From the NCBI RefSeq assembly GCF_002993885.1, contig NZ_CM009578.1, positions 3,491,569 through 3,555,568 of the forward strand: a stretch of 64,000 nt of DNA, in the 5' to 3' direction. Made by a program: the position numbers and the translations under genes. This DNA comes from Sphingopyxis lindanitolerans (lineage in GTDB: Bacteria; Pseudomonadota; Alphaproteobacteria; Sphingomonadales; Sphingomonadaceae). The notes below the pieces were generated by a model. That model searched no databases and was not told the DNA's origin. It was given only the letters and a program-made list of their open reading frames with translations. Positions 44,835 to 64,000 of this stretch are shown one piece after another (the stretch's first letter is position 1; each line of letters starts with the position of its first letter).

Positions 44835-46495
44835 GGGCTCTGACTCACTTTTGGTGCAATACAGAGGGATGATCGCGAGGTGGCATCAGCCTCGCCCGCA
44901 GCAAATCGAGCTTGGCGCGTCCATACATCTGGCGTTTGACGAGCTTCAACTTCGTGATCTGTCCTTCCGTTTGCCCGTTGGACCAGGGCTCCACGATAGC
45001 GGCCTTCACGGCATTCCAGTCGTCGCTCAAGCCATTCGCAAACGAACGAAGCGGAGTTTTCCGGGCTTCGTCGATCCATGTGGCGAGCTCGAAGTCTTTC
45101 TGTTGCCTGATGATCCGGTGGAATCGGTCGGCAAGATTTCGAACGACGACGAGCGCCGGCACGGCGGCTTCAATCGTCGCGATAAGCGTGGCTTCTGATT
45201 TCGAGAGTTGATCGCGGGCCATCGTCATAAGCCGGGCAATCACACGGGCTGATGGAATGACGCGCGACACGTTGTTCGGAGCTGCCTCGTTGCGCCTCCG
45301 CCGCGTCGCCCATTCTGCAACGACACGCAGGCTTCCGTTAAAGCCGATGATTTTGAGCCGCCGCCAGAGTTCGGCACCATTCCGGCAACCGGAACGCCAT
45401 TCGGCATCGAGCGTCCCGAGCCACGGGTCGAGAGAGCTAAGCCGGGTGCGGAACATATCGGATCGTCCGCCACGAGCGACCTGGCGTACGGTCTTGCGGG
45501 CATAGCCGGTCGCGCGAACAACCGCCTTGATGGACGCCCCTTTCCCAAGCAGCGAGCGGATCGTATCATCGGCATCCTGACGCCGCTTGAAGCCTTCGTA
45601 TTGAAGCCGCTCAGCGCAGGTGAGGAGTTCTGGATCGGGTTCGGCGGATTGAAGTGCCTGGCGAATGGCGCGCATAGATTTACGGACAGCGTCGAGGAAC
45701 GCCTGGCTGGCATTCTCCATCAAATGCCAGCGATCGGCAATCTGCAGGGCGCCAGGCAAGGCCCGCGCGGCCGCATGGCGGTACCCGCCACCGCGATCAC
45801 GCGAGATAATGCAGATCTCCGGCCGGGCCTTGAGCCACGCTTCCACGGTGGCGACGCCACGATCGGGGAGGAGGTCGATAATCTGTCGGCGCTCCAGATC
45901 ACAGACGATCGTGCCATATCGCTGTCCGCGCTTCCACGCCCAGTCGTCGATGCCGATGATCGTCGGCTTCACCTGAGCGCCCTTGAAGCGCCGACGCACA
46001 GTTCGAAGCAATGTGTCCTTGCTGACCGGCATCAGAAGGCGGCGCGCCAAGCTGGCCGCCGGACGCCCACCCAGCGCCAGCCCAAGGTGATGTACGATAG
46101 AATCCAGGCGGGCCGTACGCCGGGCAAATGTTGCAGCCACATCCGGAGGAAAGCGTTCAACGAAGATACGCGTGGCGCACCGAGATGTGGCGCAACGAAA
46201 ACGCCGGGCGACAAGAGTAATCCGAACCGGCCGGCCATGAGATGGTAGATCGGCGAGTGTACGGTGATATCGACTGTGGACACGCGCAGATGGGCGGCAG
46301 CAGTTCGGGCAGATCGAAACTCGAAATCGGGATCGCCCGGTGATCAGTATCTGATTGGCGGCATACTCGACCTTGTCGATCACCAATCCTATTGGCGCAA
46401 TGGCTTCGCGAAAACCTCTCCCATGCATGGCGATGTCCTCCTTCGGGGAAACTCGCCACTATCAACGCACTTGCACCAAAAGTGAGTCAGAGCCC
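44835..46495 (-). mobile_element. ISL3-family insertion sequence, right copy
   Basis: 1661 bp with the same 25-bp inverted ends as the left copy (44835-44859 and 46471-46495). Flanked by TTTTT at 44830-44834 and 46496-46500. Inserted in the istA-side terminal repeat of the IS21 copy: GGGGTCC-TTTTT before, GCACGCCGAT after. Confidence 0.92.
44845..46428 (-). CDS. ISL3-family transposase
   Basis: A 527-residue protein identical to the left copy (1824-3407), intact, with the same DDWAWKRGQ, ISRDRGGGY and ADRWHLMENA segments. Being identical in both places, the two insertions are recent or homogenised. Confidence 0.93.
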   Translation of the reverse strand: MHGRGFREAIAPIGLVIDKVEYAANQILITGRSRFRVSICPNCCRPSARVHSRYHRTLADLPSHGRPVRITLVARRFRCATSRCATRIFVERFPPDVAATFARRTARLDSIVHHLGLALGGRPAASLARRLLMPVSKDTLLRTVRRRFKGAQVKPTIIGIDDWAWKRGQRYGTIVCDLERRQIIDLLPDRGVATVEAWLKARPEICIISRDRGGGYRHAAARALPGALQIADRWHLMENASQAFLDAVRKSMRAIRQALQSAEPDPELLTCAERLQYEGFKRRQDADDTIRSLLGKGASIKAVVRATGYARKTVRQVARGGRSDMFRTRLSSLDPWLGTLDAEWRSGCRNGAELWRRLKIIGFNGSLRVVAEWATRRRRNEAAPNNVSRVIPSARVIARLMTMARDQLSKSEATLIATIEAAVPALVVVRNLADRFHRIIRQQKDFELATWIDEARKTPLRSFANGLSDDWNAVKAAIVEPWSNGQTEGQITKLKLVKRQMYGRAKLDLLRARLMPPRDHPSVLHQK

Positions 46496-49211: not shown

Positions 49212-49938
49212 TGTGCTTCGCCTGGCGGCGTGCCCATACCAATTTGCGACACCGCTAGCCCAAAGCCATGCCTGCCGAGGTCCGACGACAGTTTGCCGGT
49301 TGCGCATGTAAATTTGGAAAGCGGCCGGGCTGCGGGCGGCCGGATGCAGACGAAGCTGCCAATCGCGCGGCGGGTTTGGTTGGGGTCTCGATGGATGACG
49401 CGGTTCAAGGATTATTGTCCCCGACATGCAATTCGCAACGCTGTAAGAAGCTAGCTTAGCGCGGCCGCGCGTTAAGCGGCATGTGCCAAATTCATCCGTC
49501 AAGGCCAGAAAATCTATAGTTTGATGCGCAGTTCAGCGACTCCAACTTGCTTACGGTTCGTCTGCTGGCGAGAAATCGGCAATGTTTTTCGGACGGTCGC
49601 ACGAGTCAAATGGTCCATCGCCAGATCGTTTAGTGGAATTACGCCAAATTGCCTTATTCAGGGCTGAAAACCGGGAGTTTGGTGCGGGAGTTGGTGAAGC
49701 CAACTCCAGATTGTGCCAAATGCCCAAGAACTGAATGAAATCAGTGTTCATGGTGCGGTCGAGATCGCGCCGGGGCCTTACCGAAAGAGCCAAATATCTG
49801 TTTTCAATACATTTATTTTTACATACTTTGATTTGATCTGACCCTTTCTGACCGCCCATTGCGCCATTCGTGCCAAGCTGTTTAGGCCGTGTTTATCGGA
49901 AACGCACCGTCATAACAGAGCAGCAGGAATTTGGTACA
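49212..49938. other. Gap upstream of the integrase gene with no supported gene
   Basis: About 730 bp. Frames here look non-coding. GC content drops near 49790-49830 (TTTTCAATACATTTATTTTTACATAC). The stretch before the integrase may hold its promoter and an attachment site, but I could not find a matching direct repeat elsewhere in the window. Confidence 0.4.
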
Positions 49939-50964
49939 ATGGCTAGTTTTCAGAAGCGAAAAAACGCGTGGCGAGTGACCATCCGCCGCAAAGGGAAATA
50001 TATTTCCGCAACCTTCGATACGAAGACCGAGGCCAACGCCTGGGCGATCCAGGCCGAGGCCAAAATCCTGAAAGGCTTTGAAGCCGATGCGGTCAGCAAG
50101 GAGCCGGAGGTTCCGGTTGAAGGCATACCGGCCACCGAGGCATTGCAACGCTACGCCAACGAGGTTTCATCGAAAAAGCGGGGCGCGCGCTGGGAACAAA
50201 TCCGGATCGAGGCGATGATCCGAAATGACCGGGTTTTCAAACGTCCCATCGTGACGATCACCGGTGCTGATATCTCGGAGTGGCGGGACAAGCGGTTGCG
50301 CAAGGTATCGCCTTCGACGGTGAACCGCGAGATGTGCCTGCTGTCGAGCATTTTCAATTTCGCGCTTCGTGAATGCCGCATGGGCTTGACGTTCAACCCT
50401 TGCGCGCTCGTCAGCAAGCCACGCAAACCTCGTCCCCGATCGCAGCGCATATCGCTTGAAGAGCGGCAGGCCATTATTGCCAAGCTCGGCTGGAATGGCC
50501 GCAGTGAACCCCGGACACCGAGCCAGTGGGTCGGACTTGCTTTCTATTTCGCACTGGAAACCGCGATGCGCAAAGGCGAGATCCTTTCGCTGCGATGGTC
50601 CGACGTTCATTTCGAGGAACGCTACGCGCATCTCGACATCACCAAGAACGGCGACGAGCGCGATGTTCCCTTGTCGAAGGCCGCCATCAAATTGTTGAAG
50701 ATCGTGCGCGACCGCGACCTCGGCAGTCCGGTCATTCCGGTCCAATCGGGCCATTTCGGGCAGATCTTTACACAGGCCAAGCGGGATGCGGGCCTGGATC
50801 AAATCCATTTTCACGACAGCCGCCGCGAAGCCGCCACGACGATGGCGCCGAAGCTGTCCAACGTATTGGAACTGGCAGCGATCACTGGGCACAAATCGCT
50901 GCAAATGCTACAAATCTACTATAAGCCGAGGCCGCAGGATTTGGCTGCACGGCTCGACCTCTAG
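49939..50964 (+). CDS. Tyrosine recombinase / site-specific integrase
   Basis: A 341-residue integrase, ATG at 49939. An N-terminal AP2-like DNA-binding segment (KNAWRVTIRRKGKYISATFDTKTEANAWA) and a core-binding domain precede the catalytic domain. The first Arg is in LETAMRKGEILSLRW, H-x-x-R in HFHDSRREAATTM, the second His region in ITGHKSLQ, and the nucleophile Tyr is in LQIYYKPRP. All key residues are present. No full mobile element follows, only a DUF2285 regulator, so it may be the residue of an integrative element. Confidence 0.9.
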   Translation: MASFQKRKNAWRVTIRRKGKYISATFDTKTEANAWAIQAEAKILKGFEADAVSKEPEVPVEGIPATEALQRYANEVSSKKRGARWEQIRIEAMIRNDRVFKRPIVTITGADISEWRDKRLRKVSPSTVNREMCLLSSIFNFALRECRMGLTFNPCALVSKPRKPRPRSQRISLEERQAIIAKLGWNGRSEPRTPSQWVGLAFYFALETAMRKGEILSLRWSDVHFEERYAHLDITKNGDERDVPLSKAAIKLLKIVRDRDLGSPVIPVQSGHFGQIFTQAKRDAGLDQIHFHDSRREAATTMAPKLSNVLELAAITGHKSLQMLQIYYKPRPQDLAARLDL

Positions 50965-51062: not shown

Positions 51063-51827
51063 TCATCGAAACCACGGCCCTTGGAAAGGGTCATCGAGAT
51101 ATTTCCTCGCCAGGCGGACAAGGCGTCGTATGCGCAGACGATATGAGGCGTTCTCGACCCGCCAGTTTTTGCCAACGACCATGGTGCCGAAAAAGGACCG
51201 CGCCATCTGTTGTTGCGACGCGCCGACCGCGAGCGCGTCTGCGGTGCGCAGTTCGAGAACCCAGCGCGGCGCCCGGATTTCGCGCGGACGAAGCGACGGA
51301 GGCAAGTCGCCGCGATGCGCCAAGGCTGAAAGTTGGCGCAAGGCCGATATTTTTGCCTCCGCGCTGTCGAACCCGACCAGACGATGCTCGAGGAGTGTGG
51401 GACCGCCGAGCAAGGTTCCGTCGAGAAGATCGAGCCGTACCATCCAGAGTCCGTCGCTGATGAGCCAATGTTCGACATTGTCTTCGATGGCGATCGAAAC
51501 CTTGCTTGCGACGAGGCGCACATCGAACAGATCGGTGTCCTGGCCGCGCTTGGCTAACGGGTTGCTGCCAAGGACGCGAGGATCCGTGTCGGCGGACCAG
51601 ATCGGGCGCGCATCGGGCGTTGCGCGATGCGGGTCTTCATAGGCAAGGAGTCCGAATGCGGTGGGCGGTCGATGGCGCTCGCGCCACGCCGCTCGATAGG
51701 GCGGATGGCGCCTGATCCACTCCCAGGCAAAAGCGCGGCGGTCGGCCCGAAGGAGGGCGCGATAGTCGTGAGCGGATCGCCAGTTCGCCCCGGATGACCA
51801 GACTTCGCGAGAGCCGCGTTTTGACAT
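51063..51827 (-). CDS. DUF6499/DUF2285-type DNA-binding protein
   Basis: A 254-residue protein; ATG at 51827. The N-terminal segment ANWRSAHDYRALLRADRRAFAWEWIRRHPPYR fits the DUF6499 motif. The C-terminal segment (QQQMARSFFGTMVVGKNWRVENASYRLRIRRLVRLARKYL) fits DUF2285, as in regulators and accessory proteins of integrative and conjugative elements. It lies near the integrase gene and divergent from luxR. The frame extends to 52205, but that N-terminus is non-native. Confidence 0.78.
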   Translation of the reverse strand: MSKRGSREVWSSGANWRSAHDYRALLRADRRAFAWEWIRRHPPYRAAWRERHRPPTAFGLLAYEDPHRATPDARPIWSADTDPRVLGSNPLAKRGQDTDLFDVRLVASKVSIAIEDNVEHWLISDGLWMVRLDLLDGTLLGGPTLLEHRLVGFDSAEAKISALRQLSALAHRGDLPPSLRPREIRAPRWVLELRTADALAVGASQQQMARSFFGTMVVGKNWRVENASYRLRIRRLVRLARKYLDDPFQGPWFR

Positions 51828-51865: not shown

Positions 51866-52029
51866 CGCTTGCGAATAGATAGATGACCTCCCAGTCGTCT
51901 GCGTGGGGCGCGGCGCGACCTTTCATCCTGTCACGGCGGCTCATCGAGATAGCCACGCCGGGCCGGCCGAAGAGAAAGGGTGATCGAACGGCGGCGGCTT
52001 GAAACGCACCGTTCGGTCGCAGCCTAATA

Positions 52030-52770
52030 ATGCCGAGTCTCGATGCCGCGCAGCAACTGGCGCGCGAATTTACCCGGATTGCAGACACATCCGATCTCGA
52101 CAATGTCCTCGCCGAAGTGTGCAGGTTATTGGGTTGCCGCTTTTTTGCGCTCAGCCACCACGTCGATTTTCTGGGCGCGCCCGATCTGGGCTTGCGAGTC
52201 CACAACTATCCCGAGGAGTGGGCGCACTGGTTCGATAGCCAGCGCTTGGGCCTCGACGACCCGGTGCATCGCGCCAGCCAGCGCACGGCGGTGGGGTTCC
52301 TCTGGCGCGATATGGCCCGTCTTGCGCCGCTGGCTGCTGGCGACCGGCACATCCTGGCGCGGGCCAGGCACCACGGGATCGGTGACGGGCTCACCATTCC
52401 CGCGCATGTACCGGGCGACGCCCATGGCTCCTGCTCCTTTGCTTGGCGACGGGGCGCGGCACCCGATGGGAATGCGCTTATTTTCTCGCAATCGATCGCC
52501 AACTTCGCCTTCGAGGCGGCGCGGCGAATTCACGGTCCGCCGGCGACGCCGCGCCTTCGCCTGACACACCGCCAGCGTGAGTGCCTGCTCTGGGCCGCCC
52601 GCGGAAAGACCGACTGGGAGATCTCACGCATAATCGGTATCGGACATATGACCGTCGTCGAGCATATTCGCAATGCACGCGGGCGTTATGGTTCCGCAAC
52701 GCGTGCGATGCTCATCGTTCACGCGCTCTTTGATGGAACCCTTCATTTCAGCGAGATCGCCAAGCACTGA
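52030..52770 (+). CDS. LuxR-family quorum-sensing transcriptional regulator
   Basis: A 246-residue regulator. The autoinducer-binding domain shows W64 (EEW), D77-P78 (LDDPV), W92 (FLWRDM) and conserved G residues; the Tyr of the ligand pocket is Phe here (F68). The C-terminal GerE-type helix-turn-helix is LTHRQRECLLWAARGKTDWEISRIIGIGHMTVVEHIRNA. The adjacent luxI, 80 bp downstream, makes this a complete AHL sensor-synthase pair. It probably controls the genes downstream. Confidence 0.92.
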   Translation: MPSLDAAQQLAREFTRIADTSDLDNVLAEVCRLLGCRFFALSHHVDFLGAPDLGLRVHNYPEEWAHWFDSQRLGLDDPVHRASQRTAVGFLWRDMARLAPLAAGDRHILARARHHGIGDGLTIPAHVPGDAHGSCSFAWRRGAAPDGNALIFSQSIANFAFEAARRIHGPPATPRLRLTHRQRECLLWAARGKTDWEISRIIGIGHMTVVEHIRNARGRYGSATRAMLIVHALFDGTLHFSEIAKH

Positions 52771-52850
52771 CCACCCCCCATTTCTTGGTATAGCGAGCCG
52801 CGTTTTTTCGCTTCAATTGGACTGTCTCTTTCACTGCAAGGGAGACATCC

Positions 52851-53465
52851 ATGCTACGCACCATCGATCAATCCAACCGCATTCTCGAGTCCAGGGCGCT
52901 TCGCGGCATGTTCGAGGCTCGCAAGGAGGTCTTCGTCGATCTTCTCAAATGGGATCTGCCCGTCCTCGCCGATCGCTACGAAGTCGATCATTTCGATGAT
53001 GGCGAGGCGGTATATCTGATCGTCACCGATCTCGAGGCCCGGCATCTGGCTTCGGCGCGGTTGCTGAGGACGACGCGGCCGGCGCTCCTCGACAGCCTCT
53101 ACCCCGATCTCGCCGATGGCGCGGTTCCTCGCGGCGAGGATATTCTTGAAATTACCCGTTTCTGCCTGTCGCGTGGTGTCGGCGCGCGGCTCCGGCGCGA
53201 GGCGCGCGACAGGCTGCTGGTGGGGCTCGTCGAATATGCACTGGCCAACGAGGTTCGCCGCTACACCGGCGTGGCGGAGCTTTCCTGGTTCGAGCAGATT
53301 TGCACCTTCGGCTGGGAATGCCGGTCGCTTGGCAAGCCTTGCCTCCATGACGGCAGGTGGCTGGTGGGGCTCTGCATCGACATTGATGATGGAACCATCG
53401 ACCGGCTCGCCGCCGGCGGGATCACGGCGGCGAGCCGTGAAGCGACCGCGGCTCGAGCGGCGTGA
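52851..53465 (+). CDS. Acyl-homoserine-lactone synthase (LuxI family)
   Basis: A 204-residue enzyme that makes an AHL signal from S-adenosylmethionine and acyl-ACP. Conserved residues are all visible: R24, F28, W34, D46, D49, R70, E100 and R103 (ILEITRF). The acyl chain cannot be deduced. The gene is followed 11 bp later by phyH, so luxI, phyH and the GntR-like gene are probably co-transcribed. Confidence 0.93.
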   Translation: MLRTIDQSNRILESRALRGMFEARKEVFVDLLKWDLPVLADRYEVDHFDDGEAVYLIVTDLEARHLASARLLRTTRPALLDSLYPDLADGAVPRGEDILEITRFCLSRGVGARLRREARDRLLVGLVEYALANEVRRYTGVAELSWFEQICTFGWECRSLGKPCLHDGRWLVGLCIDIDDGTIDRLAAGGITAASREATAARAA

Positions 53466-53476
53466 AGGGAAAGGCC

Positions 53477-54370
53477 ATGAACAATTTCTCACCATGTCCG
53501 TCCGATGCCGACGCTGCCGCGCTTGCCCGCACCGGCTACGTCGTCCTGCGCGGTGTCGCTCAGCCTACAGCCGTCGCTGAAATCGAAGCGGATTTGTCCG
53601 ATCGCTTCGAGGCCACTCCCTTTTGCGAAGGAGGCTTTTATGGCGCGCGGACCAAGAGGTTCGGGCGACTCCTGATCCGTTCGCCGCGCATGGCTGAGCT
53701 GGTCATGAACCCGGCAGTTTTGGCGCTGGCCCAAGATGCGCTTGGCCCTTGGTGCGATCGGATCCAGCTCAACCTCACTCAGGCGATCGAAATCCATCCC
53801 GGCGCGCTCGCGCAGTTTCCGCATCGCGATCAGGATATGTGGCGCGGCGCGGTGGGCGAGATCGAATATCTCGTGAATGTCATGTGGCCGCTGACCCGGT
53901 TCACATGCGACAATGGCGCGACGAAGATTTGGCCGGACAGCCACGGGGCCGACGCGCTTTCCGCCGAAACAGGGGCCGAACCGGTCGTTGCCGAGGCTGA
54001 TCCCGGCGATGCGATCGTGTTTCTCGGCTCAACGCTCCACGGCGCCGGAGCCAATGCGAGCGCTGGCGTGCGGCGCGGTATCATCGTCAGCTACTGTCTC
54101 GGCTGGCTCAAACCCTATGAAAATCAGTGGCTCGCCTATCCGCCCGAGATCGCGCGTGATTTTGCGCCCGAACTGGCCGCGATGGTGGGCTACGCGCAGC
54201 ATCGGCCCAATCTCGGCAACTTCGAGGGCCAATGCCCGTCGGTGCTGTTCGGCGGCTATCCCGACGAACCGCTTGCTGCGATCGACACGCTGCGGCCCGA
54301 CCAGTCCGCAATGCTGGCCGAGTTTGTTGCGACGCAGACTGCACGAGCCGACGGGGAGCGCGGGCAATGA
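53477..54370 (+). CDS. Phytanoyl-CoA dioxygenase (PhyH) family protein
   Basis: A 297-residue Fe(II)/2-oxoglutarate-type oxygenase. Facial triad: H-x-D in FPHRDQDMW (about residues 115-118) and distal His in STLHGAGANAS near 188, followed by Arg in GVRRGIIVSY. Start at 53477 (MNNFSPCPSD). The last codons overlap the next gene (ATGA). luxI-phyH adjacency recurs in sphingomonads as I recall. The substrate is unknown: possible roles are AHL or lasso peptide modification, or independent metabolism. Confidence 0.88.
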   Translation: MNNFSPCPSDADAAALARTGYVVLRGVAQPTAVAEIEADLSDRFEATPFCEGGFYGARTKRFGRLLIRSPRMAELVMNPAVLALAQDALGPWCDRIQLNLTQAIEIHPGALAQFPHRDQDMWRGAVGEIEYLVNVMWPLTRFTCDNGATKIWPDSHGADALSAETGAEPVVAEADPGDAIVFLGSTLHGAGANASAGVRRGIIVSYCLGWLKPYENQWLAYPPEIARDFAPELAAMVGYAQHRPNLGNFEGQCPSVLFGGYPDEPLAAIDTLRPDQSAMLAEFVATQTARADGERGQ

Positions 54371-54987
54371 GTCCCGGCACGACGATGGAGCGGGTCTATC
54401 TCGAACTGAAGGCGCGCATCATGTCGGGACAGTTTGCTGCCGGGGTTCGTATCGATCCTGTGGTCATCGCGCGCGAGCTGGCCGCAAGTGCGACGCCGGT
54501 CCGCGATGCGCTCCACCGGCTCAGCGGCGAGCGGCTCGTCGACAGCTGGCATCAGGATGGATTTCGCCAGCCGGTGCAGAATGAGAGCGACTTGCGCGAC
54601 AGCTACAGCTGGTCGCAGGTGTTGCTCGTCCTTGCCCTTCGATCGCCTGCGGCGGCGTCCCCGCCGGAGGCATTGGTCAGCGGTGTGGCAGGCGAAGACT
54701 ATCCGGCGCGGCTCGGGCGGCTGTTCCGGGCGATCGGGCTACAATCTGACAATCGCGAACTCCGCCTTGCGATCGGCAATCTGGTCGATCGCACTCATTT
54801 TGTGCGCGGCGCCGAGGCCGAGGCGGACCCCGGTTGCATCGACGCACTTGCGGCGATGGAGGGCGATTTTCAGTGTGGCCGCTGGCGCGAATTGCGAGCC
54901 GGAGTCGTGCGATTTCACCGCCGCCGCATTGCCACCGCCGGCACCGTTGCGCTGCGGCTGCGACCGGACAATCGGCAGCTCGGATAA
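54367..54987 (+). CDS. GntR-like transcriptional regulator
   Basis: A 206-residue protein. The N-terminal winged helix has VYLELKARIMSGQFAAGVRID...ARELAASATPVRDALHRLSGERLVD, the GntR pattern. The C-terminal 120 residues are helical but do not show the usual FCD metal ligands clearly. The start overlaps the phyH stop by 4 bp. Directly upstream of the lasso precursor gene, 97 bp away, so it may regulate the operon. GntR genes also accompany known isopeptidase-type lasso clusters. Confidence 0.75.
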   Translation: MSPGTTMERVYLELKARIMSGQFAAGVRIDPVVIARELAASATPVRDALHRLSGERLVDSWHQDGFRQPVQNESDLRDSYSWSQVLLVLALRSPAAASPPEALVSGVAGEDYPARLGRLFRAIGLQSDNRELRLAIGNLVDRTHFVRGAEAEADPGCIDALAAMEGDFQCGRWRELRAGVVRFHRRRIATAGTVALRLRPDNRQLG

Positions 54988-55084
54988 CATTCGCAAAACA
55001 GAAACCGTATAAACTGGCTATATTGCTTCGGGACCATAGCCTTTGACGAGCCGCAATATCGCGGCATCAGCAAAGGAGGGTCCC
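54988..55084 (+). promoter_or_regulatory. Probable lasso operon promoter region
   Basis: 97 bp between the GntR-like stop and the precursor ATG. A -10-like TATATT lies near 55018-55023 and AAAGGAGGG forms a strong ribosome-binding site 7 bases before the ATG at 55085. This Shine-Dalgarno decides the precursor start over the upstream in-frame ATG (55043). Confidence 0.45.
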
Positions 55085-55225
55085 ATGGACCGCAATGACA
55101 TTGCCGAGGACGGCATCGAAGAACTGGGTATCGCCAGCGTTGTGACGCTCGGGCCGGCGCCGCCCTATCCCGAGGATCAGTTCCTCAGCCCGATTCCCGT
55201 CGGCGGCGGCATCAGCGCCGATTGA
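55085..55225 (+). CDS. Lasso peptide precursor (A)
   Basis: A 46-residue precursor. Leader of 22 residues, acidic (MDRNDIAEDGIEELG), ending ...VVTL with Thr at position -2, the hallmark needed for processing. The predicted 24-residue core starts GPAPPYPED and ends PVGGGISAD. Gly1 could close an 8-residue ring on Glu8 or a 9-residue ring on Asp9. A 9-residue ring is commoner in related sphingomonad lasso peptides. Aromatic and bulky residues (F11, I15) and prolines lie in the putative loop/tail. Neighbours B and C confirm the call. The core is not one I know, but resembles the sphingopyxin style at its end. Confidence 0.88.
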   Translation: MDRNDIAEDGIEELGIASVVTLGPAPPYPEDQFLSPIPVGGGISAD

Positions 55226-55233
55226 CGGAATGG

Positions 55234-55260
55234 CGGACGCGGCGTCCGGCGTCGCGTCCG
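55234..55260 (+). promoter_or_regulatory. Stem-loop between precursor and B gene
   Basis: An 11-bp stem (55234-55244 with 55250-55260, one G-U pair), loop TCCGG, in the 45-bp gap after the precursor stop. No T-run. Such a hairpin can protect or partly end the transcript so that precursor exceeds enzyme, as described for other lasso operons. Confidence 0.65.
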
Positions 55261-55270
55261 CTTCCTTGCC

Positions 55271-55936
55271 ATGACCTTTCATCTCGCGCCCCATATGAGC
55301 TATGGTGTCTTCGGCACCCGGGCCGTCCTGCTTGATCTGGTGACAGATCGATATTTGCTGCTCGGCGAAGCCGAAGCCGCCGCGCTCGCTGCCCTGGCGA
55401 AGCCGGATCCATCTGCTTCCCCTGCACTCGTTAATGCGCTGCTCGCGCGCCGCATCATCGTCGAGGGGGCGGGCAGCGTAATCGCGCCCGTCGATCAGCC
55501 GCGACCGCTGGCCAGCGCGCTGGAGACCCTTGACGGCGGCGGCGGCGTTTCGACGTTGGAAGCAAGCCTCTCGTGCATACGGGCGATCCTGTCGATCAGA
55601 ACGATGGGCCTCGCGCGGACTATCATGCGCGCACGCGCATTCCGGCGGCGATGCGAGCGCCGCCGCGATGGCAGGCTGGTCACCGACAGCGGTCGCGCCG
55701 CCTTTTTTGCGCGTGGCTTTGCCGAGGCACGTATCGGCGTCCCATTGCCGCGCCGCTGCGTACCCGACAGCTTGGCGCTCGCGCGTTGCTTGTGGAATCG
55801 CGGAATCGCGGCCGATGTCTTCTTCGGCGTCCAGCTCGATCCGCTTCTTGCGCACGCCTGGGTCCAGATCGACGATGTCGTCCTGTCGGATCCGCTCAAT
55901 ATCGCGGCGGACTATTGTCCGGTATTCAGGCTGTGA
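55271..55936 (+). CDS. Lasso peptide leader peptidase (B protein, B1-B2 fusion)
   Basis: A 221-residue protein. The N-terminal about 80 residues (MSYGVFGTRAVLLDLVTDRYLLL) form the leader-binding RRE-like (B1) part. The C-terminal transglutaminase-like protease (B2) has Cys163 (RRCVPDSLALA), His195 (LAHAWVQI) and Asp207 (LSDPLN). It removes the leader after Thr-Leu. Its stop overlaps the C-gene start (GTGA), ensuring coupled translation. Confidence 0.92.
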   Translation: MTFHLAPHMSYGVFGTRAVLLDLVTDRYLLLGEAEAAALAALAKPDPSASPALVNALLARRIIVEGAGSVIAPVDQPRPLASALETLDGGGGVSTLEASLSCIRAILSIRTMGLARTIMRARAFRRRCERRRDGRLVTDSGRAAFFARGFAEARIGVPLPRRCVPDSLALARCLWNRGIAADVFFGVQLDPLLAHAWVQIDDVVLSDPLNIAADYCPVFRL

Positions 55937-57660
55937 GCCTGCGCATTGCGCTTGTCGAAGGCTCGGTGCTGCGCCCACCCTTGCCGCGCGGCTTGACGCC
56001 GCTTGCCACGATCGGGCCGGCCCGGATTGTCGGCCTCGCCGAGACGCCGGTCGTTGCCGCAGCCGATGCCGTGCTCATCGGCTGGGCGTTTTACCGCGAA
56101 GGCTTCACGGCCTGCACGGCCTTGTCGGAGGGCGAGATCGAGCAGCTTATCACGTCGCGCGGCGCTTGGGCGCTGCGCGCACTTTGGGGCCACTTTCTGT
56201 TGGCCTGGGTCGATCGCGACGATCGTGTCTTCCTGCTGCGCTCGCCTGTCGCAGGGCCCCCCGTTTTTCATACTCGCCGTCAGCGCGGTCAATCGGCCGC
56301 CCTGACCGGCGCCCAAACCGGAAGCTGTGTCTTTACCGACCTCGGTCTCGCGCGTTCGCTTGGCTTCGCGCTTGACCGGCCCGATCCCGGGAGGATCGAC
56401 GCCGCGCTTCGCTATCCGTTTCTTCGTGGGCCCGATACCGAGCTGGCCGGGGTTCGCGAGATCCTGCCGGGCGAGATTGTGGATCTTGTGGAGGGCGACC
56501 GCCAGCCCGCCAGCTGGTCGCCATGGGACCATGCCGCGCGACCGCCGCATCACGCAACGCCTGAGGAACTGCGCGCGCTGGTCCACGCCGTCGTATCGGC
56601 TTGGAGCACGCGCTTCACACGTATCCAGCTTGAGCTCTCGGGTGGGCTCGACAGCTCGATCATCGCGGCGTGTCTTGCCGGCCGCACCGACGACTGGCGG
56701 GGGCTGACGCTCGCGACAAGCGACCCTGACGGCGATGAGCGACCTTATGCGCGCGCGGTCAGCGAGCAATTTGGCGTGCCGCTCGCCGAACGATGGCGCC
56801 CGCCGCCGGGCGATCCGCTCGCACCCCCGCGTACATTGCGTGCGCGACCCGGCGGGTTCGGGCTGCTTGCGCCGAGCGACGCCGTCTTCCTGGATGCGGC
56901 GCGCACATATCGCGCCGACGCCATTTTCACCGGCGCGGGCGGCGATAATGTGTTCGGCTATATCACGTCGGCCGCCCCGGTTATCGATGCGCTGCGTTTT
57001 GCCGGTCCGCGTGCGGCCTGGCGTGCGTCCGGCGACCTGGCGCGATTAGCCCGCGACAATCGGTGGAAAGCCATCGGCTTCGCGATCAGGCGCAGCCTGC
57101 GTCCGCCGCCGCTTTGGCCGATCGATCATTCGCTACTGTCGTGGCGTCACGCCGATATCATGCCTGCGCACCCATGGGCGGCTGACGCGGGGCGTGCAGC
57201 CCCGGGTCAACGGGTTTACGGCATGAGCCTGTTGCTCGTGCAATCCTTCGTCGATGCCTATGACAGGGCGCTGGCCATGCCGATGATCGCGCCGCTGCTT
57301 TCGCAGCCGCTGGTCGAGTTCGGGCTCGGCCATGCCAGCTGGAAGTGGGGCGAGGGTGGGCAGGACCGGGCTTTTGCACGACGCGCCTTTCAGGAAGATT
57401 TGCCGCCGGCAGTGTTGTCCCGGCGCAGCAAGGGACGGATCCTGTCGGTCTTCCTTCCGGCGTTTGCGGAAAATCGCGAACGATTGCGACCGTTTCTGCT
57501 CGATGGCTGGCTCGCGGGCGCGGGATTGCTCGATCTCGATGCCGTGCGTGCAATGCTGGAAACGGGGGCGGGCGATCCGGTGAGCATCTTGCGGTTGCTC
57601 GAAGTCGCCGACATGGAGAGCTGGGCGCGCTCGATTGAGGCGACCCCGTCGGGCGGATGA
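55933..57660 (+). CDS. Lasso peptide macrolactam synthetase (C protein, asparagine-synthetase-like)
   Basis: A 575-residue protein starting at GTG 55933. N-terminal glutaminase-like domain without the catalytic Cys2 (MSLRIALVEG), as is usual in lasso C proteins. The synthetase domain has the PP-loop LSGGLDSSIIAA near residue 235, later TGAGGDNVFGY and SRRSKGRILSV. It activates the Glu/Asp side chain of the core with ATP and closes the ring with Gly1. Overlaps the B stop by 4 bp. Confidence 0.92.
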   Translation: MSLRIALVEGSVLRPPLPRGLTPLATIGPARIVGLAETPVVAAADAVLIGWAFYREGFTACTALSEGEIEQLITSRGAWALRALWGHFLLAWVDRDDRVFLLRSPVAGPPVFHTRRQRGQSAALTGAQTGSCVFTDLGLARSLGFALDRPDPGRIDAALRYPFLRGPDTELAGVREILPGEIVDLVEGDRQPASWSPWDHAARPPHHATPEELRALVHAVVSAWSTRFTRIQLELSGGLDSSIIAACLAGRTDDWRGLTLATSDPDGDERPYARAVSEQFGVPLAERWRPPPGDPLAPPRTLRARPGGFGLLAPSDAVFLDAARTYRADAIFTGAGGDNVFGYITSAAPVIDALRFAGPRAAWRASGDLARLARDNRWKAIGFAIRRSLRPPPLWPIDHSLLSWRHADIMPAHPWAADAGRAAPGQRVYGMSLLLVQSFVDAYDRALAMPMIAPLLSQPLVEFGLGHASWKWGEGGQDRAFARRAFQEDLPPAVLSRRSKGRILSVFLPAFAENRERLRPFLLDGWLAGAGLLDLDAVRAMLETGAGDPVSILRLLEVADMESWARSIEATPSGG

Positions 57661-57727
57661 CGATTGTCCAGCACCAGACCATAGACCGTGCAGAGCGCCT
57701 GCCGGGGTGCCGGCGCCCCGCACGGAC

Positions 57728-59707
57728 CTACGGCGCGGGAGCGGGCAAGGACTGTCCCGCGCGAAGCTTTCGCCAGCGGCGATATTGATCGCCCTTTTCA
57801 GGCGCCGCATCCTCTTCGCGCTTGAGCCAGAAGCGATACCAATCGAGGGTGCGTTCGTAAGATGCGCGCTTGTGCGCGGGCTGGTATTTGATGTGGAGTT
57901 CGTCGGCGAAGACGAACATCTCGACCGGCTTGCCCGCGCGCTTGAGACGCGCATGAAATTCGACGTTCGACTGGACCTCGGACTCGGGCAGTTGCATCAG
58001 CAGCGGCGTATCGAGCGCTTCGATGTCCCAGACGGGCGAAACGAACTTCCAGCGCGCGAGGTCGCTTTCGGGGTCGCCGAGGTTCCAATAGTCCTTGAGC
58101 ATCGCGGTGAAGCCGCGGTCGGGGAGCGCATTGATCCAATAATAATGCGGTGAGACCTGCCCGGAAGCAACCGTCGCGGCGGCGAAGCGCTTTGATTTGC
58201 GGATCGACCAGAGCGCTACCGACGATCCGAAGCTCAGGCCGCCGATGCCGACGCGCCCCGGATCGATCTTGCCTTGCGCCGCGAGCCCGTCGATCGCCGC
58301 ACCGATCGTCTTCAGCGCGAGGTCGTAGGACCCCTCCATCCCCGCCGCCCGCGGTGCCCGGATCGCGTTGATGCACAGCACTGCAATGCCATGCTCGACG
58401 AGCGGCAGCATCGGAATTTCGTCGCCGGTTCCTCCCTTGAGAAAACCGTCGCACATATAATAATGCACGACAACCGGCAGCGGGCTGGTTGCTTGCGGCG
58501 GGGTCAGGAAATATCCCGTGAAACCGCCATCCCAGACCATCGGCTCGACTTTCGCCGCAACCCGCGTGGCCAATTGGTGGTTGGGCTCGGCGAGAATATG
58601 CGTTCGGCCGTTAGCAAAATCGACGCGAACGAGGCGGGGTGGTTCAAGCGGCTGCGCGTCGGCGCAGTAGAGGGCGTCGGCTCCGACCGCGCAGCGCGGC
58701 GGTCGGCCGGGCACACGGAGCGCACCGTTCGTCGTCGCGAGCCGCTTCGCCTCGCTGGCGCCGACCGTCCAAAGCCAGGCAATTTCGCGCGCGCTCCCAA
58801 ACTTCTCGAAGAGGACGAGCCTGTCGCTTCCCGCCCAGGCGAGTGCAAGCAGCTGGCCCGACCGGCATGGCACGGCAGTGCATTCGATCGATCTTCCGTC
58901 AGGGCGGGTCACGCGGATGCGCTGCACGGCCTTGTCGCTGCTGATCTCGGCACGGCTGCCATCTGCGGCGCGGCTCGACAAGTCCTGAACCGGCGCGGGC
59001 GGCGCAGGGAGTTGCACGGGACTTCGCGGTACGATCGACTTCTCGGTTCGCGGCGCGTCCCACAAGATTCGCTGGTTGTCGAACCATGGCGACGAAATGC
59101 GCCGCATGATGCGCCGCCCGTCTTCGATGACGCCGCCTGCCACCGGCTGGTTGAGGTTTAGGGTCCCGTCCACTAGCACCCCGTCGCGATAGGCCGATCG
59201 TTCGGCTGCGGCGATTGCGCCGCGTGTTGGACCGACACTGTACCGGAGCGCTGTGCCATCGACGGATAGCCCGAAGTCGACGATGTCGGCGTCATCGACA
59301 ATCTCGCGCGCCAGCGGTTCGTTCTCGCGCCAATGCCAGATTGCGATGATCCCGTCCTTTAAGGCGAGGAAGCGCAGTCCGCGACTATCGGCGTCCCAAA
59401 GCGGGGCTGCCTCGATGGGCGTTCCCCCCGCATCGGGGCGCTCGACGCCCCCGTCGAGGATGATCGGTTCGCCGCGTTTCGTGACGTCGACAATATACCA
59501 GCCCAGCTGCGCGACATTCGCATCGACCGACGGATGACTGACGCGATAGGCGATGCGGCGGCCATCCGGGGAAAGCGTCGGCGCGGTGATCTCGCGGACT
59601 TCGACCAGGTCGCGCGTCGTGATCGGCGCGCGGTCGTCCGGCAAAGACGTTGGCGCGTCAGTCGGCGCCGCCGCCAGCGCCGCGAGCACATATGCGACCG
59701 TCACCAT
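57728..59707 (-). CDS. Lasso peptide isopeptidase (S9 family)
   Basis: A 659-residue serine hydrolase with an N-terminal beta-propeller region and a C-terminal alpha/beta domain. Nucleophile GLSFGSS near residue 492, acid Glu in QLPESEV near 575, and His in ADELHIKYQP near 605. This S...E...H spacing matches known lasso isopeptidases such as AtxE2. A secretion signal is visible at the start (VLAALAAAPTDAP). It should cut the isopeptide bond of imported lasso peptide. The start overlaps the TBDR stop by 7 bp, so they share a transcript. Confidence 0.9.
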   Translation of the reverse strand: MVTVAYVLAALAAAPTDAPTSLPDDRAPITTRDLVEVREITAPTLSPDGRRIAYRVSHPSVDANVAQLGWYIVDVTKRGEPIILDGGVERPDAGGTPIEAAPLWDADSRGLRFLALKDGIIAIWHWRENEPLAREIVDDADIVDFGLSVDGTALRYSVGPTRGAIAAAERSAYRDGVLVDGTLNLNQPVAGGVIEDGRRIMRRISSPWFDNQRILWDAPRTEKSIVPRSPVQLPAPPAPVQDLSSRAADGSRAEISSDKAVQRIRVTRPDGRSIECTAVPCRSGQLLALAWAGSDRLVLFEKFGSAREIAWLWTVGASEAKRLATTNGALRVPGRPPRCAVGADALYCADAQPLEPPRLVRVDFANGRTHILAEPNHQLATRVAAKVEPMVWDGGFTGYFLTPPQATSPLPVVVHYYMCDGFLKGGTGDEIPMLPLVEHGIAVLCINAIRAPRAAGMEGSYDLALKTIGAAIDGLAAQGKIDPGRVGIGGLSFGSSVALWSIRKSKRFAAATVASGQVSPHYYWINALPDRGFTAMLKDYWNLGDPESDLARWKFVSPVWDIEALDTPLLMQLPESEVQSNVEFHARLKRAGKPVEMFVFADELHIKYQPAHKRASYERTLDWYRFWLKREEDAAPEKGDQYRRWRKLRAGQSLPAPAP

Positions 59708-62631
59708 GCGATCACCGCCTGCAATGCAATCGTCCGCCCCACCGCGCTGGCCTGTTCGGCGTCGTAGGCGATCGCCGAACCGATTGCGCGGACCTGTGCA
59801 TAGGGCGGGGCGCGATCGAAGAGATTGTTGACGCTAAGGGCGAGGCGAAGCGAGCCCGCACCGGAATCGCTCGGCGGTCCGGCGATCGTGGTTCCGAGCT
59901 GGAGATCGACGGTTGTCCAGCTCTTGACCTGCTCCGTCGGCGTTACGGTGAGATTGCGGTAGCCGTCGACATGGTGGACCCCGATCCCGGCGTCAAAAGC
60001 GCCGAGCGTGAACTCGGCGCGGCCGCGTAGCCGCAGCTTGACCGGATTGCCGAGGGTGCCGACGACATTGTTCCGCGCGGCAGTCGCCACCAGGCGATTG
60101 TCGATCTCGAACAATCGGCTTCCTCCGAGCGAGAGATTGATAGTGCCGCCGCCAACCGGGCGGTTGTAGGTGAGGTCGAAATCGATCCCGCGGACGCGCG
60201 ACGAGGCGAGGTTGCGTGTTCGGACGTCGAGTATGGCGCGGACGTCGCCCGGTGCCGCGCCGATCGCGTTCGAGAAATTGGGGCCGGCAAAATAGGCAGC
60301 TATCGTTGCGGAATCCGGGTTTTCCTCGATGAGCGGCGCAAAGACATCGCGCCGCACCAGAAAATTCCGGAACTCTGCCGATCCCGATGTTATGCGGCCG
60401 CGATAGTCGACATCGAAATAGGTCAGGGCAAGTTTGGCGCCCGGAAGAAAGCCGGGCTCGAAGTCGACGCCCGCAGTCCAGCTCTCGGCTTTCTCCGGGC
60501 CGAGATCGGGCCGAAAACCGAAGAGCGCAAGAACGACCGACTGGCCTGAGGGCGCTTGGGGGTCGGCGACGCGCAGTGTCTGGTATCGCGCATTGGCGGT
60601 CCCCACCAGCTCGTCGAAGAAAGGCGCGCGAAACGACCGACCGTAGGACGCGCGAAGCGCGAGACCGGGGAGGGGAGTCCAGCGCACGCCCGCCTTGGGA
60701 TTGGCAGTGTCGCCGACGTCCGAATAATCTTCATAGCGCCCCGCGGCCGAGAGCGTCAGGCTGCCGGGAAAATTCTCTCCGGCATCGAAAACCGGCAGCG
60801 CCAGTTCGGCATACACCGCGCGCACGATGCGCTTGTCGGGGAGTCCGGGGATACCGTCGGTTCGCGGGCTCTCGCTGGCGAGGTCGCTGACCTGGACATA
60901 GGTCAGGCGATCGCGCCGATATTCAGCGCCGAGCGCGAGCTTCGCCTCGCCGGCCGGGAGGCGAAACAGGGGACCGTCGGCACGGACCGCGCCGCTCCAC
61001 ACCCGGAACCGCGTATCGACGGCAAGGCTGCCGCGGAGCCGGTCTATCAGCGCCGGGTCGTTGACTGCCCCATCGCCGAAGGGGTTGAGGGCCTGGTCGA
61101 TGTCGGGGGCCGACGCGGCGCGCGGCAGGCGCAAGAAATGGATCAGATTGACCCCGTCGTAGTGCTCGCGCTGCTCACCAAAGCCTCCGGACAGCTCGAC
61201 GTCCCACGGACCCAGCGCGATGCGACCCCCGAAGGAAGCGTTGAGCGCCTTGACGCGACCGCGCGTCCCTTCGGGTCCAAAATCGGCGGCAGGATCATAA
61301 TAGACGGTGATCGGTTGGCCGGTCCCGATCGGATCGACATAATAGGGGTTTGCGCTGGTCACCGTCAGCGGGATGGTGCCGTTGAGGCGCCGGCGAATGT
61401 CGAAACGGCGATTGGCGTAGAGCAGGCGCACGAAGAAGCCGAGATTTTCTCCGACGTCCTGCTCGGCGCTGGCATAAAGGCTTTCGCTTTTCTGTTTCGG
61501 CAGGAGATCGGTGATGCGCCGCCCATCGCCGCGGTTGAAATCGGCGCTCGGAATGAGGTCGGTGGCGGTGAGATTGCGGCCGTCTTGCCCAGACGGGATC
61601 TGGAACCTCTGGCCGTTCGCTGCCACGATCGTACCCGGGCTGTTGTAGTTCGAGCGAAGATCGGGGCCACCGAAACGCCGCAAATCCTCGGTCGCGAAAG
61701 CGCGCTGGTTCGAGGGCAAATTGCCCCGTCGGTAGAATTCGCCGGCGACGACGAGATGTCCGCCATTCCAGTGCGTGCCAAAAACCTGCCCGATCTGGAC
61801 TTCGCCATAATCGCCGTCGGCGGTCGCAACGCGAAGCCGGGTTTCCGCGCCTTCGAACCGGTTGCGAAGACGGATGTTGACGACGCCGGCGACGGCATCT
61901 GAACCGTAGATCGCCGAGGCCCCATCGGTGAGAATTTCGATCCGCTCGACCGCTGCGGTCGGGATGAGCGACAGGTCGGCGAAAGCGGCCGAGGCGCCGC
62001 CTAGTGCCGGGCGCACACCGTCGAACAGCGTCAAAGTCGCACCCGGGCCGAGGCCGCGCAGGTTGATCGCCGAGCCGAACCCGATGTTGCTGAGGCTGTT
62101 GCCGCGCGCGCTCATCCCGAAATTGGCTTCGGTTGGGCCGCCAGAGAAATTCTGCGGGATTGTCTGGACGAAATCGGCGATCGTTCCGCGGCCGCTTTGG
62201 TCGAGCGCGTCCCGGTCGATCGTGGTGAGCGGGGAACCGATCGGACCGGTGCCGCGGATGCGCGTACCGGTAACGATGATCGCTTCGCCCGCTGGCTCAG
62301 CCAGGTTGGCCGCTTGACCTCCAGCGGGACGGATGACTCTTGCGCCATCTACGATGGAAAAACTGAGTCCGGTTTCCGCAATCAGTCTGGCGAGCGCGGC
62401 GTCTGCCGACAGCCGGCCGCGAACGGGCGTGCTGCGGTGTCCATCGACGATCTCGGCATCGGCAATGACCTCCTGGCCAGACACGTCGGAATACTGGCGT
62501 AGCGCTGCGGCGAGAGGCTGTGCGGCAATAGCATAGTCGCGCACGCTCTCCTGCGCGCAGGCGGCAGGCGCATGAAGCGCGGTGGCCGCACATCCCGTTG
62601 TCAGAAGCGCTGCAAAAACCCGTTTGTGCAT
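59701..62631 (-). CDS. TonB-dependent receptor with STN domain (lasso peptide uptake/sensing)
   Basis: A 976-residue outer-membrane receptor; ATG at 62631 with GAGGGA upstream. Signal peptide (RVFAALLTTGCAATALHAPAACA), then an STN domain (PLAAALRQYSDVSGQEV...VIRP) that signals to FecR. Plug and barrel follow (GTIADFVQTIPQNFSG, VERIEILTDGASAIYGSDAVAGVVN) and the C-terminal aromatic strand RTIALQAVIAW. Sits between isopeptidase and FecR, so it likely imports the lasso peptide and reports its presence. Confidence 0.92.
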   Translation of the reverse strand: MHKRVFAALLTTGCAATALHAPAACAQESVRDYAIAAQPLAAALRQYSDVSGQEVIADAEIVDGHRSTPVRGRLSADAALARLIAETGLSFSIVDGARVIRPAGGQAANLAEPAGEAIIVTGTRIRGTGPIGSPLTTIDRDALDQSGRGTIADFVQTIPQNFSGGPTEANFGMSARGNSLSNIGFGSAINLRGLGPGATLTLFDGVRPALGGASAAFADLSLIPTAAVERIEILTDGASAIYGSDAVAGVVNIRLRNRFEGAETRLRVATADGDYGEVQIGQVFGTHWNGGHLVVAGEFYRRGNLPSNQRAFATEDLRRFGGPDLRSNYNSPGTIVAANGQRFQIPSGQDGRNLTATDLIPSADFNRGDGRRITDLLPKQKSESLYASAEQDVGENLGFFVRLLYANRRFDIRRRLNGTIPLTVTSANPYYVDPIGTGQPITVYYDPAADFGPEGTRGRVKALNASFGGRIALGPWDVELSGGFGEQREHYDGVNLIHFLRLPRAASAPDIDQALNPFGDGAVNDPALIDRLRGSLAVDTRFRVWSGAVRADGPLFRLPAGEAKLALGAEYRRDRLTYVQVSDLASESPRTDGIPGLPDKRIVRAVYAELALPVFDAGENFPGSLTLSAAGRYEDYSDVGDTANPKAGVRWTPLPGLALRASYGRSFRAPFFDELVGTANARYQTLRVADPQAPSGQSVVLALFGFRPDLGPEKAESWTAGVDFEPGFLPGAKLALTYFDVDYRGRITSGSAEFRNFLVRRDVFAPLIEENPDSATIAAYFAGPNFSNAIGAAPGDVRAILDVRTRNLASSRVRGIDFDLTYNRPVGGGTINLSLGGSRLFEIDNRLVATAARNNVVGTLGNPVKLRLRGRAEFTLGAFDAGIGVHHVDGYRNLTVTPTEQVKSWTTVDLQLGTTIAGPPSDSGAGSLRLALSVNNLFDRAPPYAQVRAIGSAIAYDAEQASAVGRTIALQAVIAW

Positions 62632-62688
62632 GTGTCCCTCCCACGCGGCCGTCATGGCCGTCTGAAGAGGAAAATGCCGGGCTGCGGA

Positions 62689-63615
62689 TTACTCCCCCCG
62701 TTTTTGCGCGCGGGGGCTGAGTACGATGCCTTCGCCGTTGGTGCTGACGTCGAGATCGAGCGCGGCGGCGAGCTTGCGTGCCAGCGCAGCGCTGTCCGCA
62801 ATGTCGAAACGACCCGTGACCCGGCGCGCGGCGAGGGCCGGATCAGCCAGACGGATGGCGGTATCGCCGTTACGGTTCGCCCGCTCGATCACCGTTCCGA
62901 GCGGCAGGTCCTGTGCATCGAGCATCGTCCCCGTTACCGGCGCCGGCACCGCCGGGAGGCGGCGTACTTCGCCTTCTGCAACCTCGGCGCTTTCGCCGGG
63001 CGCGAGACGGACGGTGGATACGCCGCGCAAGGCGCGCACCTCGACCGATCCCTCGATCAGCGTGACGCGCGGCTGTGCTGCGCGCAGGTCAACCTCGAAA
63101 ACGGTCCCGAGCGCGATCGTCTCGGAGCCGTTCGCGACCACCGAGAAAGGCCGCCGCGCGTCATGCGTCACAAGGAAGCGCGCGCGGCCCGACAGCAGCA
63201 CGACTTTTCGCGCGGTATCGTCGAAGTGTGTCTCGATCCGCGCTCCGTCCATCAGCATGACCCGGCTGCCGTCGGCCAGCCTGCGCTCCCGTCCTGCGGG
63301 ATCATTGTCGGCAAGCTGCACGTCGGCTGGGCCAGGCCGAAGATACCAGCCTGCGCCCAGCGCCAATGCGAGCAGGAGCGCGCCTGCCATCGCCCAAGCG
63401 GGAGCGTGCGAACGCGGCGTCGGCGCGGTTTCGCGGATCACGCGATCTTCGGGTGCAAGCCCGCCGACGGCGAGCCAGTCGATTTCCGCTTGGGCATAGG
63501 CTTCGGCGTTGGCGGGATCCTGGCGCCAGGCGTCGAACGCCGCGCGATGCGTCCCGGCGTCGGGACCGCGCATGCGCGCGAACCAGTCGGCGGCCTCATT
63601 GTCGCGGGATTTCAC
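62689..63615 (-). CDS. FecR-family anti-sigma / signal-transduction protein
   Basis: A 308-residue protein, GTG start. DUF4880-type N-terminus (AADWFARMRG....AAFDAWRQDPANAEAYAQAE), one TM helix (WAMAGALLLALALGAGWYL) near residue 75-93, then the FecR periplasmic domain (RRLADGSRVMLMDGARIE, VLLSGRARFLV) and a C-terminal STN-interacting part (FDIADSAALARKLAAALDLDV). It overlaps the sigma gene stop by 4 bp. It should hold the sigma factor until the TBDR signals. Confidence 0.92.
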   Translation of the reverse strand: MKSRDNEAADWFARMRGPDAGTHRAAFDAWRQDPANAEAYAQAEIDWLAVGGLAPEDRVIRETAPTPRSHAPAWAMAGALLLALALGAGWYLRPGPADVQLADNDPAGRERRLADGSRVMLMDGARIETHFDDTARKVVLLSGRARFLVTHDARRPFSVVANGSETIALGTVFEVDLRAAQPRVTLIEGSVEVRALRGVSTVRLAPGESAEVAEGEVRRLPAVPAPVTGTMLDAQDLPLGTVIERANRNGDTAIRLADPALAARRVTGRFDIADSAALARKLAAALDLDVSTNGEGIVLSPRAQKRGE

Positions 63616-64000
63616 GGACGCGCCGACCGTGCGCGCCGGACTGCGACCATCGCCTTGGCAATTTGCTTCTCGACACCCTTCACGCCGATCCCTCTCGCTG
63701 CAGCGATCTCCTCATAGCTCAGACCCTCGAAACGATGCATCAGGAATATGTCGCGCGTCTGCGGTTTGAGCCGATCGAGCGCGGCGGCGACGCGCCGCAT
63801 CTGGTCGCGCGCCTCGAGCGCGGCGTGGGGGTCGGGACCGCTGATCTCGGGCTCCTCATAGCTTTGATGGTCTGCGGCCATGCGGCGTTCGTCGGTGCGG
63901 TGGCGCTCGGCGAGCAGGTTGCGCGCGGTACGGAAGAGATAGGCCGCCGGCTGTTCGGCGAGGACGCGCGGATAGGCGCCGCTCGAAATCAAGCGGCGAA
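63612..64000 (-). CDS. ECF sigma factor (FecI-like), partial at window edge
   Basis: The C-terminal about 129 codons. Region 2 end (AAYLFRTARNLLAERHRTDERR) and region 4 (LDRLKPQTRDIFLMHRFEGLSYEEIAAARGIGVKGVEKQIAKAM) are visible. The 5' end lies beyond base 64000. Together with FecR and the STN receptor it forms a cell-surface signalling unit that probably activates its own cluster when lasso peptide is bound. Confidence 0.9.
   Translation of the reverse strand, partial: RRLISSGAYPRVLAEQPAAYLFRTARNLLAERHRTDERRMAADHQSYEEPEISGPDPHAALEARDQMRRVAAALDRLKPQTRDIFLMHRFEGLSYEEIAAARGIGVKGVEKQIAKAMVAVRRARSARP

Follow-up and report, generated by a model that had tools for sequence, protein, structure and literature searches.

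Lasso peptide precursors carry a Thr at position −2 of the leader, a Gly at position 1 of the core and an Asp or Glu at positions 7–9. The precursor described here resembles the subterisin family (PF24178) in scoring above the family cut-off and in its leader (...EELG.ASV.TL), Thr −2 and Gly1, but it differs in having a Pro-rich core that ends in GGGISAD; the core of subterisin itself is a different one. A second close system is the cluster of what we take to be sphingopyxin I (locus L144, core GIEPLGPVDEDQGEHYLFAGGITADD). It comes from the same genus and likewise has an isopeptidase, a TonB receptor, a FecR and a luxR–luxI–phyH–gntR run, but this quartet is found at the far end of the cluster, on the FecR side, and the ring acceptor would be D9 rather than E8. 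The quartet is so placed in seven loci examined as examples (L139–L145), while the source genome's own locus of this arrangement (L064) has luxI just outside the fetched stretch. The isopeptidases of L064 and L139–L145 are 24–27% identical to the one described here.

Sphingocin of Sphingomonas BPH is another sphingomonad example with lasso genes, an adjacent divergent isopeptidase gene and a TonB receptor, but its core is GPGFINNDGVGGKLPFAGLSDD, and the words quorum, homoserine and GntR do not occur in the accessible text of the paper (PMC11006600). Novosphingobium subterraneum has novR–novI–phyH loci, one with a GntR-like gene after phyH, which is the gene order found here; its LuxI proteins, expressed individually, yielded C8-OH, C8 and C10-OH acyl-homoserine lactones (PMC5012321, figure legend), and Gan and co-workers call the reaction of the PhyH protein encoded beside luxI "yet to be described" (PMC5012321). 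Lasso peptides do not come up in the main text of that paper (PMC5012321).

In the window, the whole 64,000-nucleotide stretch of Sphingopyxis lindanitolerans DNA that was analyzed, the locus has the following features.

52030..52770, +, LuxR-type regulator (PF03472, 86.1 bits; PF00196; CviR, RhlR, LasR)
52773..52792, +, lux-box-like site ACCCCCCATTTCTTGGTATA, an imperfect palindrome starting 78 nt before luxI, at a fixed place in relatives
52851..53465, +, LuxI-type acyl-homoserine-lactone (AHL) synthase (PF00765, 63.9 bits; AHL synthases in the PDB)
53477..54370, +, PhyH-family Fe(II)/2OG dioxygenase with HRD and H188 as presumed motif residues (PF05721, 80.9 bits)
54355..54987, +, GntR regulator, predicted full-length FadR/FCD-type fold (PF00392; model pLDDT 86.7)
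54988..55047, +, candidate promoter/operator of A, with blocks conserved in the gntR–A intergenic regions of relatives
55050..55065, +, leader hairpin GCCGC-AATATC-GCGGC with paired changes, its end 19 nt ahead of the start codon
55085..55225, +, lasso precursor gene A, 46 aa (PF24178, 31.6 bits; homologues); leader 55085–55150, core 55151–55222
55227..55265, +, strong A–B intergenic hairpin (−30.3 kcal/mol, z −3.62)
55271..55936, +, lasso B protein (NF033537, 51.2 bits, cut-off 33, residues 109–217; PF13471)
55933..57660, +, putative lasso cyclase C, asparagine-synthase-like, with SGGLDSS motif (PF00733, 79.6 bits)
57728..59707, −, Atxe2-family lasso isopeptidase with GLSFG (NF033523, 519.2 bits, cut-off 400)
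59701..62655, −, TonB-dependent receptor with N-terminal STN domain (PF00593, PF07715, PF07660)
62689..63615, −, FecR regulator (PF04773)
63612..63992, −, ECF-type sigma factor, region 4, which may run past the window (PF08281, 54.8 bits)

The forward strand therefore reads luxR, luxI, phyH, gntR, A, B, C, 97 bp separating A from the gene before it, and the isopeptidase, TonB/STN receptor, FecR and sigma factor genes lie on the reverse strand, convergent to A–B–C.

A subterisin-family precursor and its enzymes

The open reading frame at 55085–55225 (+), immediately preceded by AAAGGAGG, translates into the leader MDRNDIAEDGIEELGIASVVTL followed by the core GPAPPYPEDQFLSPIPVGGGISAD. A preliminary description had taken it for a lasso precursor, and the family model (31.6 bits against a Pfam Subterisin cut-off of 27), the homologues and the complete-looking cluster all support this. 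A search of 5.8 billion proteins returned 11 at E ≤ 1, the window's own included, all with the PF24178 domain; their aligned leaders share the pattern given above, again with Thr −2 and Gly1. One homologue (P0002) has the core GPAPPYPEDHLLSPIPVGGGISAD, which recurs at loci L102 and L124. Given the PF24178 match, the homologues and the adjoining lasso B, C and isopeptidase genes, this reading frame is not a mere product of chance, and sequence comparison confirms a genuine lasso peptide gene of new sequence and ordinary kind. The string GPAPPYPEDQFLSPIPVGGGISAD was not found in the open-licence literature. Among the genomes searched, the Subterisin family exceeds its cut-off in 50 of the 80 from the genus, 40 of the 298 from the family and one of the 289 sampled across the class, which is the window's own.

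The core has 24 residues, and the translation contains what the preliminary description had listed: Thr −2, Gly1, both E8 and D9, and four prolines near the core start (P2, P4, P5 and P7, all within the first eight residues). The general precursor rule is thus borne out in sequence and in conservation, and the described likeness of the tail to sphingopyxin-type peptides is a fair one when set beside GIEPLGPVDEDQGEHYLFAGGITADD. The predicted [M+H]+ of the core minus water is 2363.155. Tandem pairs of different precursors before one B–C pair occur at many clade loci (L088, L089, L098, L112, L117 and others).

The C-terminal part of B is a B2 domain, in which C163, H195 and D207 are what we take to be the proposed triad, and the N-terminal part would be B1. 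Protein C stays far below the cut-offs of both NCBIfam lasso-cyclase models, NF033561 and NF033535 (71.4 vs 300 in one case and 25.3 vs 525 in the other). The best PDB match of the isopeptidase is AtxE2 (E 1.4e-56). No ABC exporter was found among the scanned proteins.

Ring acceptor and the partner of PhyH

The 50 clade loci gave 37 distinct cores, with E8 present in 36, P7 in 10 and D9 in 3. In an alignment of ten sequences, made up of the window's own and nine homologues without P0010 (a longer relative of P0008), P7 and E8 are invariant and position 9 varies. One of the 37 cores (AAGEHGLPMEMGG...) begins with Ala by the regular expression used; a cut two residues later would bring E to position 8, but Thr would then not stand at −2. 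Some of the ring prolines are retained in related cores (GQIPNRPE, GTELPFPE, GGLLPYPE). Because E8 is near-constant and D9 rare among clade cores, the ring is most likely closed between Gly1 and Glu8 and has eight residues, four of them prolines. The preliminary description was right that E8 and D9 are both available, but its nine-residue ring is disfavored by conservation. Closure on Asp9 has in its favor that D9 is present in the core and that the 33 other family loci gave 30 distinct cores, 29 of which carry Asp8 or Asp9 by eye count; with position 9 being other than Asp in 34 of the 37 clade cores, which keep E8 almost throughout, we regard it as highly improbable. The precursors of L186, L190 and L192, which were among the non-clade precursors missed by the core-extracting regular expression, have Glu rather than Asp at 8 or 9, so the Glu acceptor is not confined to the window's clade; that clade uses Glu8, and a few other luxI-linked loci seem to do the same. 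Overall, the acceptor splits by clade, with Glu8 in L063 and L086–L138 versus mostly Asp8 or Asp9 in L139–L190, a difference for which the C enzymes may be the explanation.

The peptide could also be modified by PhyH, which looks intact as an Fe/2OG enzyme and is encoded in the same operon-like run; CanE of Streptomyces canus is a lasso hydroxylase, according to a title cited in PMC9266682. The distribution of phyH makes hydroxylation of the lasso peptide very unlikely. We sampled 40 lasso stretches of the family and, from the 87 luxI loci for which no lasso neighbor was listed, another 40. Of the lasso stretches, 15 hold luxI, and all 15 also hold phyH and gntR matches. Ten of the 25 others have luxI 10–20 kb off, beyond the stretch; in the remaining 15, which have no luxI within 25 kb, gntR lies beside the precursor in 8 and phyH occurs in just one (L175, ~9 kb away). 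Two of the luxI stretches (L192 and L220) turned out to have lasso genes, and the 38 without them contain phyH in 26 cases, 24 of these directly adjoining luxI on the same strand, and gntR in 5. Matches to GntR outside the clade are weak (mostly 26–43%) and are partly perhaps other GntR proteins. From these counts, phyH tracks luxI and gntR mostly tracks the lasso genes; since phyH follows luxI even where lasso genes are absent, its product probably belongs to the AHL module and not to the peptide.

The AHL genes and the region before gene A

The genes for the AHL synthase and the AHL-binding LuxR protein stand in tandem, with PF00765, PF03472 and PF00196 all over their cut-offs. The window's LuxI has matches in 60 of the 80 genomes of the genus, and 55 of the 56 rows scoring at least 246 bits form the clade set, a second copy in G323 being left out. 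Around these 55 luxI genes we found luxR in 54 cases, phyH in 53, gntR and B in 51 each, C and the isopeptidase in 50 each, TonB in 49 and FecR in 45, some of the absences being contig ends (L096, L138). Locus L095 has luxI without phyH or lasso genes, L106 has luxI–phyH only, without gntR or lasso genes, and the L115 stretch has gntR and B but lacks C and the isopeptidase. Among 298 family genomes, luxI lies within 25 kb of 33 of the 53 lasso loci that exceed the cut-off (five rows below it were dropped), and of 27 of the 44 outside the genus; roughly 1 of 53 would be expected by chance, a rough estimate from 50 kb in ~3.7 Mb and one to two luxI per genome. Conversely, a lasso locus is near 33 of the 120 luxI genes. 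The other 20 of the 53 lasso loci lack luxI on their contig within 25 kb, and luxI is thus dispensable. In the source genome, luxI lies less than 12 kb from each of the three lasso loci. This distribution suggests that lasso production is tied to cell-density signaling. Among the open-licence papers listed, we found no record of an AHL–lasso link, luxI with Sphingopyxis included, and one may be in print; quorum, homoserine and autoinducer are not used in the accessible text of a 2026 review (PMC13352647).

Pfam finds the DNA-binding domain alone in GntR. The AlphaFold model (pLDDT 86.7) and its Foldseek matches (2hs5, TM 0.77; TM0439, 3sxy, 0.68) suggest a full FadR/FCD-type regulator, and with such a predicted fold GntR may bind a small ligand.

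Of 65 distinct luxI upstream sequences, 64 have a lux-box-like site between −73 and −83. With both strands counted at each place, in the window as in the shuffles, the luxI site scored 13.0, place 11052 scored 13.5, and shuffles gave 1.2 hits of at least 13 per 64 kb, so the score alone is near chance and only the fixed position counts, in relatives that are not independent. A search for further lux boxes by score was rejected, the luxI site itself scoring hardly above chance in 64 kb. Elsewhere in the cluster, gene A included, there is no lux-box-like site scoring at least 8, and direct control of A by LuxR is thus not supported. Upstream of A, the window has the blocks CATTCG (54988–54993), TATAAAC (55008–55014) and TAGCCTT (55037–55043), all on the + strand; their counterparts in relatives, TATTCG, TATAAAATTC and TAGCTTT, lie at about −62, −42 and −13 from the hairpin. 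If TAGCTTT is a −10-like element, transcription would start near the hairpin. A sigma-70 scan of 51900–57900 gave a single match, inside C, and none before A.

The leader hairpin was aligned over 82 of 84 distinct sequences. Second tandem precursors, whose genes lack the stem at that place, had been taken out beforehand, 14 of them by list and a further two by hand, and stems that MAFFT misplaces (e.g. L188) count as broken. In this alignment, 88% of cells are paired, and five of the six pairs are changed on both sides somewhere. Double-changed cells number 43 versus 12.7 in shuffles (sd 2.9; 0 of 500 shuffles; slid versions at most 30), a count that is not a probability because the sequences are related and the structure was derived from them. 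The number of pairs changed on both sides and that of further pair types do not exceed the shuffled values (147 and 370 of 500). The five inner pairs are also predicted by RNAalifold. The clade's second tandem precursors have no hairpin at the corresponding place, and L186, L190 and L192 have one before both precursors.

A stem score of at least 15 is reached before A in 77% of 100 distinct upstream sequences (8.7% when shuffled), but also before B in 91% (74 distinct relatives), PhyH in 50% and TonB in 48%, and further before LuxR in 30%, the isopeptidase in 29%, GntR in 17%, LuxI in 11%, FecR in 3% and C in 0%. Stem strength alone is therefore not special, and the argument is the paired changes; by its energy, the window's hairpin is unremarkable (z −1.44). 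A covariance model, which is short and weak, matches the window at 55039–55076 with 31.3 bits, this being one of its own training sequences. Of 36 family lasso loci, 21 match at the precursor site (E up to 5) and 15 do not, within 44 matches overall, of which 21 lie elsewhere than the precursor site; L162 and L163 match at the site from outside the training set (E 4.7). The best match in 38 luxI stretches (L193–L230, including L220 with its lasso genes; L191 and L192 left out) has E 0.45. In Rfam 15, scanned over 54700–55400, nothing matches 55050–55065 at E up to 1; three sub-threshold matches in that region all lie off the hairpin and were rejected. No record of the leader hairpin was found among the open-licence papers listed, and it may be in print. 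Production may be tied to this small conserved hairpin. The hairpin between A and B is a probable attenuator.

Control and possible use of the peptide

The luxR–luxI–phyH–gntR run most likely acts as a quorum-sensing module and turns on the cluster. The AHL genes might instead adjoin a real lasso cluster by shared descent or co-mobility, with GntR or the sigma factor alone controlling A. The lasso loci without luxI within 25 kb fit this, as do the gntR matches (26–34% identical) beside the precursor in 8 of the 15 fetched luxI-less lasso stretches, the conserved upstream blocks of A with no lux box, and an integrase gene ~1 kb before luxR. Against it, the order and strand of the quartet are kept beside cores as diverse as GDFGPPVE and GPAPPYPE, and the quartet also accompanies the differently arranged clusters L139–L145; we consider a cluster free of quorum control unlikely. 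The conserved leader palindrome might act as a DNA operator rather than as an RNA hairpin, which we hold to be possible, though not our preferred reading. A palindrome that co-evolves with its protein would also yield paired changes, and this one lies near the predicted transcription start. However, G-U type pairs, which favor RNA, make up 19 cells among the five inner pairs, the loop varies in length, and the second tandem precursors, presumably on the transcript of the first, have no palindrome there, all of which speak against an operator.

With quorum control and an RNA hairpin as the preferred readings, we think it likely that the locus as a whole makes a Glu8 lasso peptide of the subterisin family from a hairpin-led message under a quorum module, and that the peptide is sensed or re-imported and then opened. 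The B protein would recognize the leader and cut after Leu22, leaving Thr at −2, and C would link the amine of Gly1 with the side chain of Glu8, so that a ring of eight residues, four of them prolines, would surround the Pro/Gly-rich tail. Gene A would be read from its own promoter behind gntR, its message starting with or near the small hairpin, and the strong hairpin after A would keep A above B and C. At high density, the luxR–luxI–phyH–gntR module would switch the cluster on, directly or via GntR. The peptide would probably be sensed or re-imported by the TonB/STN receptor, acting on FecR and the sigma factor, and the isopeptidase would open it.

More tentatively, and with some doubt, one may picture a two-signal system of sphingomonads, in which an AHL circuit (luxR–luxI–phyH) and a lasso-linked GntR switch on hairpin-led lasso genes, and the lasso peptide would be a second, re-imported signal, read through TonB/STN, FecR and the sigma factor, with the isopeptidase resetting it. 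The stable link to AHL genes offers a direct test of the role of the lasso peptide. Some clusters may be silent for want of a quorum signal, and added AHL may wake them; the leader hairpin may likewise matter when such clusters are expressed. What deserves a bench test is the AHL link and the leader hairpin.

Upstream of the cluster, the window contains a phage-type integrase and an ISL3-type transposase (49870–50964 and 44845–46428), which may point to mobility. A gene at 51063–51812 (−), just 5' of luxR, encodes transcriptional regulator-like and RovC DNA-binding domains. The same genome has two further subterisin-family lasso loci, G000:C1:2547633 (L001, L063) and G000:C1:1727707 (L002, L064), with the cores GDFGPPVEIGGKDLQNGISLD and GIEPVGPRDEDTNEHFLLVGGITAED.
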